Assembly (NCBI GenBank): GCA_003282225.1
Contig: QBZO01000002.1
Coordinates: 1-64,000 of the forward strand
Reading direction: 5' to 3'
Length of the DNA: 64,000 bases
Origin: Prochlorococcus sp. AG-335-I21
GTDB taxonomy: Bacteria > Cyanobacteriota > Cyanobacteriia > PCC-6307 > Cyanobiaceae
In this document: piece after piece, positions 36,698 to 38,515 of the stretch
Position numbering within the stretch: position 1 is the stretch's first letter
Layout: the number at the start of each line of letters is the position of its first letter
Notes under the pieces: model-generated
The model's input: only the letters and a program-made list of their open reading frames with translations
What the model was told of the DNA's origin: nothing
Database searches by the model: none
Made by a program: the position numbers and the translations under genes

Positions 36698-36768
36698 GGC
36701 GGCATGGCCAAGTGGTAAGGCAGAGGATTGCAAATCCTTTATCCCCAGTTCGAATCTGGGTGCCGCCT
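36698..36768 (+). tRNA. tRNA-Cys (GCA), attachment site of an adjacent element
   Basis: The acceptor GGCGGCA pairs with TGCCGCC and T is the discriminator. The anticodon arm GAGGA-TTGCAAA-TCCTT gives GCA (Cys). The T arm is CCCAG-TTCGAAT-CTGGG. A 22-bp exact copy of its 3' end recurs at 37561-37582, the hallmark of a recombinase attachment site. Confidence 0.96.
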
Positions 36769-36769
36769 T
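36748..36769 (+). repeat. Direct repeat (left, in tRNA-Cys 3' end)
   Basis: GTTCGAATCTGGGTGCCGCC plus TT is identical to 37561-37582. It covers the T loop, the 3' half of the T stem and the acceptor 3' strand of tRNA-Cys. Because it lies inside the working tRNA, this is the copy that preserves tRNA function after integration. Confidence 0.9.
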
Positions 36770-36856
36770 TTTCAACACAACCACACCTTTATCTATAATC
36801 CATTGCAGGAACAAGAGTTTAGAATATCGGTTGTAGTATTTCAAGTGATTTCTTCT

Positions 36857-36876
36857 GGTAGGAAAGTGGTAGGAAA
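36857..36876 (+). repeat. Left pair of GGTAGGAAA sites, 11-bp period
   Basis: Two copies of GGTAGGAAA start 11 bp apart (36857 and 36868), about one helical turn, 88 bp past the tRNA end. The same pair with the same spacing occurs near the right end of the element. This is the form expected for arm-type recombinase binding sites. Confidence 0.6.
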
Positions 36877-36999
36877 GTGGTAATTTAATTAAATCTTTTA
36901 TTTTCTACATAATATCTCATTAGTTAAATTACAAATTTAAATTTGAATTTTAGAAATACTCAAAAATAACTTTTCTACGTCCATAAACAATAAATAATT

Positions 37000-37028
37000 T
37001 TGACATTTTCTTAAGAATGAAATATCTT
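37000..37028 (+). promoter_or_regulatory. Near-consensus sigma-70 promoter for the repeat protein
   Basis: TTGACA (37000-37005), a 17-bp spacer, and TATCTT (37023-37028), placing transcription start near 37035 and giving about a 30-base leader before the ATG at 37065. Good -35 boxes stand out in this AT-rich genome, so the gene is probably expressed. Confidence 0.65.
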
Positions 37029-37064
37029 TTAAACAATTAAAAAATTATAAGAAAATCAAAGAAA

Positions 37065-37373
37065 ATGAAGATAAAAATTCTAACCATCCTAACCTTATTT
37101 TCAACTATTGGTGTTCCAGTATATTCTGGTTATGACGATTATTCCACTCCTAACATTAATGAAGGGGCAATTGGGAGTTATGACGATTATTCCACTCCTA
37201 ACATTAATGAAGGGGCAATAGGGAGTTATGACGATTATTCCACTCCTAACATTAATGAAGGGGCAATAGGGAGTTATGACGATTATTCCACTCCTAACAT
37301 TAATGAAGGGGCAATAGGGAGTTATGATGATTATTCCACTCCTAACATTAATGAGGGTTCTTGGTCATGGTAA
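37065..37373 (+). CDS. Secreted tandem-repeat protein, 16-residue repeats
   Basis: A 102-residue protein with a probable signal peptide (MKIKILTILTLFSTIGVPVYS, cleavage near Ser21-Gly22), then five units of YDDYSTPNINEGAIGS; the last ends SWSW. The units are 48 bp and almost identical in DNA, so the array expanded recently by slippage or recombination. There is no Cys, no membrane helix after the signal, and only weak charge (Asp, Glu). I do not recognise a family. Being exported, it may act in the periplasm or at the surface. It is the only gene in the tRNA-Cys element. Confidence 0.8.
   Translation: MKIKILTILTLFSTIGVPVYSGYDDYSTPNINEGAIGSYDDYSTPNINEGAIGSYDDYSTPNINEGAIGSYDDYSTPNINEGAIGSYDDYSTPNINEGSWSW
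37131..37370 (+). repeat. 48-bp tandem repeat array, 5 units
   Basis: Units start at 37131, 37179, 37227, 37275 and 37323. Units 2-4 are identical. Unit 1 differs by one base (ATTGGG versus ATAGGG). Unit 5 has one silent change early and diverges in its last third. The period is a multiple of three, so copy-number change keeps the frame. Confidence 0.95.
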
Positions 37374-37479
37374 GAAATAATCTTTTGAGTAATTCATAAT
37401 TAATTATGGTTAAGAATCTTTTTTATTTCCTACCTTCCATTTCAAGCAATAGATTTTGTAAAAATAATAAATTATTTGA

Positions 37480-37499
37480 GGTAGGAAACTGGTAGGAAA
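37480..37499 (+). repeat. Right pair of GGTAGGAAA sites, 11-bp period
   Basis: GGTAGGAAA at 37480 and 37491, the same 11-bp spacing as the left pair, 61 bp before the partial tRNA. A single inverted copy (TTTCCTACC) is at 37426-37434. Confidence 0.6.
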
Positions 37500-37560
37500 A
37501 TGACTATATCAATACCTCTAAAAATCAATTTATAACAATAATTTTCTAAACCTATACCCC

Positions 37561-37582
37561 GTTCGAATCTGGGTGCCGCCTT
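37561..37582 (+). repeat. Partial tRNA-Cys 3' end, right boundary repeat
   Basis: An exact 22-bp copy of the tRNA-Cys 3' end (36748-36769). Upstream of it the tRNA sequence is not continued, so it cannot form a tRNA. This is the element's distal attachment site. Confidence 0.9.
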
Positions 37583-37764
37583 CTTAATTTGGGTTACAAG
37601 ATTCGCTATAAAGCATTCTAAGAAATGAAGTTTTTCGTAGCGATTTTCGTATTTCAAGTCTTTCAGACTGAACAGTAAATGTAAGGTGAGTTACCTGATA
37701 AATTATAAGGTTTGATCAACCTATTATTATTATCCCATTAATAGCTCATTGGGAAAGTTTTCAA

Positions 37765-38066
37765 GTGATAAAGAAATATCGCCGGAAAATACTAAGAAAT
37801 AGAAGTATCGTGTTGTTTTCCCTTCAGAGAAGAATTAAAAAATTAAAACAACTAAAAAAAGAGCCAATTTTAGTATTTTTTGCTTATGGATAAAGATTAA
37901 TTCTTCAGATAAACAAGTAAAAATTTATAAATGGAGATTACGAAAACCAGAAATTAATCAGCCAAAGATCTCATATTTTCAGGAGAGGTCAGAGAATAAT
38001 ACAGAATGGTTATATAAAATGATCAATATTGAAGATATCAAAAACAAAATACCTAAACTTATATAA
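37765..38066 (+). pseudogene. Possible frameshifted small gene
   Basis: Frame A runs from a GTG at 37765 to 37893 and is basic (IKKYRRKILRNRSIVLFSLQ...). Frame B, overlapping its end, is open from about 37840 to the stop at 38066 and reads KINSSDKQVKIYKWRLRKP, then ERSENNTEWLYKMINIEDI. Both look coding-like and could be one protein of about 90-100 residues broken by a frameshift near 37880. No family is recognised. The start codon is uncertain. Confidence 0.35.
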
Positions 38067-38070
38067 ACAA

Positions 38071-38095
38071 AATAGGGGGATTGTTTATCCCTATT
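38071..38095. terminator. Hairpin, possible terminator
   Basis: AATAGGG and CCCTATT form a perfect 7-bp stem with an 11-base loop just after the stop at 38066. On the minus strand it is followed by TTGTTTATAT, so a T-rich tail exists only in that direction. Its function on the plus strand is uncertain. Confidence 0.35.
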
Positions 38096-38274
38096 GACTC
38101 TTCAACCAATTATGTAAAAATTCATTGAATACTTTTTTTGATTCAAATAATACTTATACTTTTGGCGATAAGATAAATATCGTACTAAAACGATAAAGAA
38201 ATTCTAATAGGGAAAAATACTCTATGAATTTTAAATTTATTGAAGAAAAATGAAATGTGGATCAAGGAGGTTTT

Positions 38275-38489
38275 ATGAAACTATTCAATCAATTCAATGT
38301 CCTTCCAAAATAATTATCAGAATTTAACTATGCGGGGTTAAATCTGAACGAAACTCCAAAAGAACTTACCAATACACTCTAGAGTTTCAAAACTTCTGGC
38401 ATAAAGAATGTAGAGAAAATCCAACTAATCAGAATTGTTTAATCTTTTGCGATCGAACACTATTTCTTTTTTCAAACAGGGAGATTTAG
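38275..38489 (+). pseudogene. Frameshifted small Cys-motif protein behind a strong Shine-Dalgarno
   Basis: AAGGAGG (38264-38270) lies 4 bases before ATG 38275, which opens MKLFNQFNVLPK and stops at 38313. A second frame from ATG 38297 reads MSFQNNYQNLTMR, and removing one G from the GGGG run at 38334-38337 would continue it as VKSERNSKRTYQYTLEFQ, then FWHKECRENPTNQNCLIFCD, to 38489. The ending C-x8-C with NP before the second Cys recalls the C-terminal loop of CP12-like small proteins, though that is only a resemblance. Either this is a decayed gene with two frame changes or the G run is a sequencing error. Confidence 0.45.
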
Positions 38490-38515
38490 TAATCATTTTT
38501 TTTAAGTTAATCTTT

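Follow-up and report, generated by a model that had tools for sequence, protein, structure and literature searches.

Tycheposons are tRNA-associated, tyrosine-recombinase-driven cargo elements of Prochlorococcus (Hackl et al. 2023, as presented in PMC10872708 and PMC10187409), described as spanning 4-200 kb and carrying a recombinase of their own (PMC10872708). In addition, an integrase family (cluster158946) is reported in PMC10187409 to lie near tRNA-Cys or tRNA-Phe, frequently with a small serine recombinase close by; that paper sets the tRNA-Cys integrases apart from those of tycheposons and states that the mechanism by which their elements are mobilized or integrated is not yet known. Here we describe an 813-bp insert at tRNA-Cys, found in a 64,000-nucleotide stretch of Prochlorococcus DNA (hereafter, the window), which resembles tycheposons, as these papers outline them, in being a tRNA-associated cargo element, but differs from them in its length of 813 bp and in carrying no recombinase. 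A plain tycheposon label was weighed for the insert and then dropped in favor of the tRNA-Cys integrase class.

The insert is bounded on its left by an intact tRNA-Cys gene, whose 3' end is duplicated downstream (33 nt, 91%, spacing 813 bp), and the repeat ORF is the only plausible gene between the two copies. Its features, all on the plus strand, are as follows:

36698 to 36768, plus strand: intact tRNA-Cys (GCA), left boundary of the insert (ARAGORN; Rfam tRNA, 67 bits)
36740 to 36772, plus strand: left copy of the 33-nt tRNA 3'-end core (direct repeat D3)
36857 to 36876, plus strand: left word pair GGTAGGAAAGTGGTAGGAAA, 88 nt past the tRNA core
37065 to 37373, plus strand: ORF of the putatively exported repeat protein, ATG to TAA, 102 aa
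37065 to 37127, plus strand: signal peptide, 21 codons, judged by eye to be cut after VYS and before GYDD
37131 to 37370, plus strand: five 48-bp units, starting at 37131, 37179, 37227, 37275 and 37323
37480 to 37499, plus strand: right word pair GGTAGGAAACTGGTAGGAAA, 61 nt ahead of the tRNA copy
37553 to 37585, plus strand: right copy of the tRNA-Cys 3'-end core (direct repeat), beyond which the chromosomal flank resumes

The open reading frame list contains no integrase or recombinase ORF within 36740-37585. Positions 37553-37700 match at 82% the tRNA-Cys flank of another genome, G015, which is free of an insert there; at this and about nine other insert-free sites, tRNA-Cys is directly followed by the conserved flank, which holds small conserved genes and purM. 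Since the right copy and its flank match the unoccupied G015 site, we concluded that the window carries an 813-bp insertion, a setting that was absent from the initial annotation of the repeat gene. From the right tRNA copy to the next conserved gene there are about 930 bp in the window (37586-38515), compared with about 230 bp at unoccupied sites; this stretch, which includes a broken segment resembling a small ORF, MSGDYETLEINQPKISYYQKK, of two other loci (L024 and L059), is probably an older insert in decay. In other genomes the tRNA-Cys site holds other small inserts. Several of these are independent, 0.7-1.2 kb long and flanked by matched ends, and they differ in cargo; as labeled by eye, the cargo found at this site includes polysaccharide-export (SLBB-like), TPR, acetyltransferase-like, methyltransferase-like and unknown genes.

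The gene within the insert had initially been annotated as an exported ORF of five near-identical 16-residue units, and this description proved exact in its coordinates, period (48) and unit identity (98% match). Tandem Repeats Finder reported 4.7 copies with a score of 438, whereas the second-best tandem array in the 64-kb window scored 65, placing this array far beyond chance. By eye, the protein begins with a Sec-type signal sequence, MKIKILTILTLFSTIGVPVYS, followed by G and then by four units of YDDYSTPNINEGAIGS and one of YDDYSTPNINEGSWSW, each of 16 residues, the last being a distinct, Trp-ending cap with a changed tail that terminates in GSWSW. At the DNA level, units 2-4 are identical and unit 1 is one synonymous base away from them, while unit 5 differs from units 2-4 at 13 bases, 10 of them non-synonymous, and those 10 lie in the altered tail. 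The near identity of units 1-4 makes a recent in-frame growth in the copy number of this 48-bp array plausible. Export is likely, judging from the signal peptide, which is conserved in the relatives described below. AlphaFold modeling of the repeat protein gave a mean pLDDT of 38, too low for a usable model but, with only six sequences in the family, not proof of disorder. Promoter-like sites showed no excess (5 observed, 4.5 in shuffles), and a 27-29-nt match to many genomes 5' of the ORF was rejected as an AT-rich chance match within a conserved gene that neighbors shell-protein-like genes.

The statement that no family could be recognized held for the databases, as no Pfam or NCBIfam family exceeded its cut-off (the best weak matches were DUF7938 in Pfam, with 18.8 bits against a cut-off of 27, and PHROG 15033, with an E value of 5e-5 across 20 residues), but it did not hold beyond them, as a small uncatalogued family of 2-5 units exists, with relatives in three other genus genomes, one sister genus and one Sulfuricurvum metagenome-assembled genome (MAG). 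Among 266 genomes of the window's genus, searched with a profile, three held further members (G891, G851 and G793), each with a signal peptide and three units of YDDPWTDGINEGAIGK, the last ending in ISW; the 400 genomes searched from the taxonomic family added G342, of another genus, whose two-unit copy is disabled by a stop codon within the signal peptide. When 85,462 species, each represented by one genome, were scanned with a sequence pattern, an approach that reaches close relatives only, one relative emerged, in the Sulfuricurvum MAG: a protein of 85 aa in which four units of 17 aa follow a signal peptide. The six aligned proteins, the window's among them, share a signal peptide, a G and tandem 16-17-aa units of the form YDD..T...NE.A(I/V)G, and the relatives carry PVYA or PVFA ahead of GYDD; unit numbers per member are 2, 3, 3, 3, 4 and 5, across differing loci or lineages. 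No further members were found in 386 genomes of the phylum or in 298 genomes of the Sulfuricurvum phylum, and a weak candidate, G833 (E 0.009), was rejected as it has no repeat units. A translated search of phage and plasmid records and viral contigs gave no match to the repeat protein or its relatives, and the unit peptides were not found in print in the literature searched. In the Sulfuricurvum MAG (L002 753-1696), the repeat gene lies directly 3' of a TraX-family gene, with an ArdC-domain gene on the same contig, an arrangement suggestive of mobile surroundings in this MAG as well; its relation to the window gene, drawn from one short repetitive match, could reflect transfer or, less likely, convergence.

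Comparison of the three genus relatives (G891, G793 and G851) revealed how their units evolve. Over the 48 codons of the repeats, the pairwise comparisons showed 9, 5 and 8 synonymous differences and no non-synonymous ones, though only about 20% of random single changes in these codons would be silent, while in the signal peptide two of the three pairs showed 4 non-synonymous changes. As the differences in the repeats are silent only, the unit sequence is under selection, and on this codon pattern the repeat ORF is a selected gene. Moreover, all 4 changes that separate units 1 and 2 of G793 are synonymous, indicating that selection holds the sequence and that unit identity does not reflect recency alone. 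Thus, the initial reading of the array as a recent in-frame copy change remains plausible for the window copy, but the identity of units is in part also kept by selection.

We then turn to the ends of the insert, at both of which (36857 and 37480) lies GGTAGGAAANTGGTAGGAAA, a pair of words with an 11-bp period. For the window's word, the left pair lies 87-88 nt from the tRNA core, a spacing common to about ten other tRNA-Cys inserts, and the right pair lies 59 nt ahead of the tRNA copy in other inserts and 61 nt ahead of it in the window. Allowing up to two mismatches, the GGTAGGAAANTGGTAGGAAA pattern occurred in 15 of 265 genus genomes, with the best matches at tRNA-Cys; around the matches in G855, G868, G051 and G907, the stretch examined held no tRNA-Cys copy, and the exact window word pair was absent from viral contigs. 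In a word-free search, in which any 9-bp word repeated at period 11 was scored as matches of 9, most occupied sites scored 8-9 and two scored 7, while unoccupied sites, from which the word pairs are absent, scored 4-7; among random window segments, 0.6% scored at least 8. The words themselves vary by insert (GGTAGGAAA, GGTCGGCAA, GACAGCAAG, GGAAGGGGA, GGGCGGTA and GGTAGGTG), and the left and right pairs of one insert match each other better than shuffled partners do (permutation 1/20,000, twelve two-ended inserts), a result that is cleanest for L024-L029, found by their tRNA flank, and G342, because several of the others were found via the GGTAGGAAA pattern. Two of the twelve, L026 and L029, have poorly matching ends, and the right end of G794 has only half a pair.

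Some of these loci are of more complex structure. Tandem inserts occupy tRNA-Cys in L099 (G938:C37, 753-3734), where a GGTAGGTG right end is followed by an insert with the GGTAGGAAA word, and three successive tRNA 3' copies lie at 397, 1182 and 1818 in L102 (G794:C1). SLBB polysaccharide-export-like genes recur as cargo (L026, L027, L028 and L029), with the GACAGCAAG word family at the left end in three of these four, and L029 combines a GACAGCAAG-family right end with a GGTAGGAAA left end, as if composite.

The attachment sites of lambda-type tyrosine integrases combine a core, located at the point of recombination, with short arm words that are repeated at a fixed distance on the element side. 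The insert likewise has a tRNA core and short repeated words at a fixed distance, but its putative sites are direct pairs with an 11-bp period at both ends, with words specific to the element. Whether tiny tRNA-Cys inserts (0.7-3 kb, often of one gene), free of recombinases, are sorted by a matched, element-specific end word that acts as an address, such that different integrases mobilize different cargo in trans, we regard as an evenly balanced proposition.

A candidate for such a mover was found in G342, in which a 10-kb element at tRNA-Cys encodes a 465-aa ORF. Though lacking a sequence match in Pfam, NCBIfam, PHROGs or PDB, this ORF contains, by eye, an HxxR...H...Y stretch as in tyrosine recombinases, and a serine resolvase lies inside the same element, with tRNA-Cys downstream. 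AlphaFold modeling of the candidate from its single sequence gave a mean pLDDT of 34.7, likewise too low for a usable model. The ORF had no homologue in the other insert loci compared, and no integrase associated with the GGTAGGAAA word was found in the loci compared. By its context, the candidate fits the integrase family of PMC10187409, beside which it is set by that paper's description only. The disabled repeat gene of G342 is not part of the 10-kb element but sits immediately beyond it, preceded by a tRNA copy of its own and by a GGTATGAAAATGGTAGGAAA pair at 87 nt, and thus looks like what is left of another insert that bore the window's word.

We consider it quite probable that the exported repeat protein is the only plausible cargo of an 813-bp non-autonomous tRNA-Cys element that is moved in trans. 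The element integrated by site-specific recombination inside the tRNA-Cys 3' end: the copy that it brought along made the tRNA whole again, and the original 3' end was displaced to the far side, as the direct repeat and the unoccupied sites in relatives show. Since the insert has no recombinase, its mover would have been a tyrosine integrase acting in trans and belonging to the picocyanobacterial tRNA-Cys element class; given the fixed spacing and matched ends, this integrase is predicted to bind, at each end of the insert, the tRNA core together with the word pair. The protein, led by its signal peptide, would be released as an acidic repeat chain, and its array may have grown recently by in-frame 48-bp duplication while selection maintains the unit sequence. 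Alternatively, a larger autonomous tRNA-Cys element could have lost its integrase and most of its cargo by internal deletion, leaving an immobile remnant. The lack of a recombinase in the 813 bp, the stop codon in the G342 signal peptide and the old remains 3' of the right copy (37586-38515, compared with about 230 bp at unoccupied sites) are all consistent with such decay, but both ends are intact and matched with exact spacing, and the existence in other genomes of several independent inserts, 0.7-1.2 kb long, differing in cargo and also matched at their ends, favors a recurring small form, making a decay product unlikely.

As to the role of the protein, we rank first, weakly, a multivalent peptide ligand outside the cytoplasm (extracellular or periplasmic). 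Ranked second, and rather improbable, is a multi-copy precursor cut outside the cytoplasm to release identical peptides of 16 residues with a signal or ligand function, the protease perhaps being a neighboring TPR-CHAT protein in some relatives. The units are strict in sequence and register and show only silent changes, which agrees with a precursor, as does the presence of a TPR-CHAT ORF, encoding an exported protein, 60 bp from the repeat gene in G891 and G851 and about 2.7 kb from it in G793. However, this adjacency occurs at two independent loci only, no CHAT gene was seen in the window genome (59% complete) and no cleavage motif is defined. CHAT itself occurs in only 14 of 123 genus genomes, and because 14 other CHAT neighborhoods are without the repeat gene, CHAT was rejected as a general partner and the link, based on gene order, is suggestive only. 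Very long exported proteins of several genus genomes (L090-L094) seem to fuse a filamentous-haemagglutinin-type N terminus with a CHAT domain. The initial annotation had proposed a surface role in phage or grazer interaction, and a phase-variable surface protein whose unit number tunes such contact would be in line with the signal peptide and the near-identical 48-bp units, but no anchor, lipobox or adhesin domain was seen in this very short and rare protein, and the 266 genus genomes held no second allele of the window locus, of different length or otherwise, rendering this role very improbable.

Returning to the favored view of a minimal insert moved in trans, the tRNA core and word pairs, with their fixed distances and matched ends, constitute a concrete candidate attachment site for tRNA-Cys integrase elements, which matters as the mechanism is stated as not yet known for these elements in PMC10187409. 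Single genes would be transportable in well under 1 kb, and paired end words offer a means of locating such inserts even where no integrase gene is present; the analysis also adds a selected, putatively exported repeat-protein family listed in none of the databases searched. The larger finding is the minimal insert with its paired end words, which is new provided that the original tycheposon paper (Hackl et al. 2023) is without them; the account of the integrase elements in PMC10187409, in the parts that bear on them, describes neither word pairs nor integrase-less forms. Compared with the tRNA-Cys/tRNA-Phe integrase elements as outlined there, the G342 element shares a serine resolvase and an integrase-sized ORF without a known family, and the window insert shares hosts that are alike by gene content, the tRNA-Cys site and a location in a variable-cargo island. 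It differs from them in comprising 813 bp and one gene, with no novel tyrosine integrase encoded, and since the integrase ORF is absent, we place it not as a full member but as a non-autonomous relative of the tRNA-Cys/tRNA-Phe elements.
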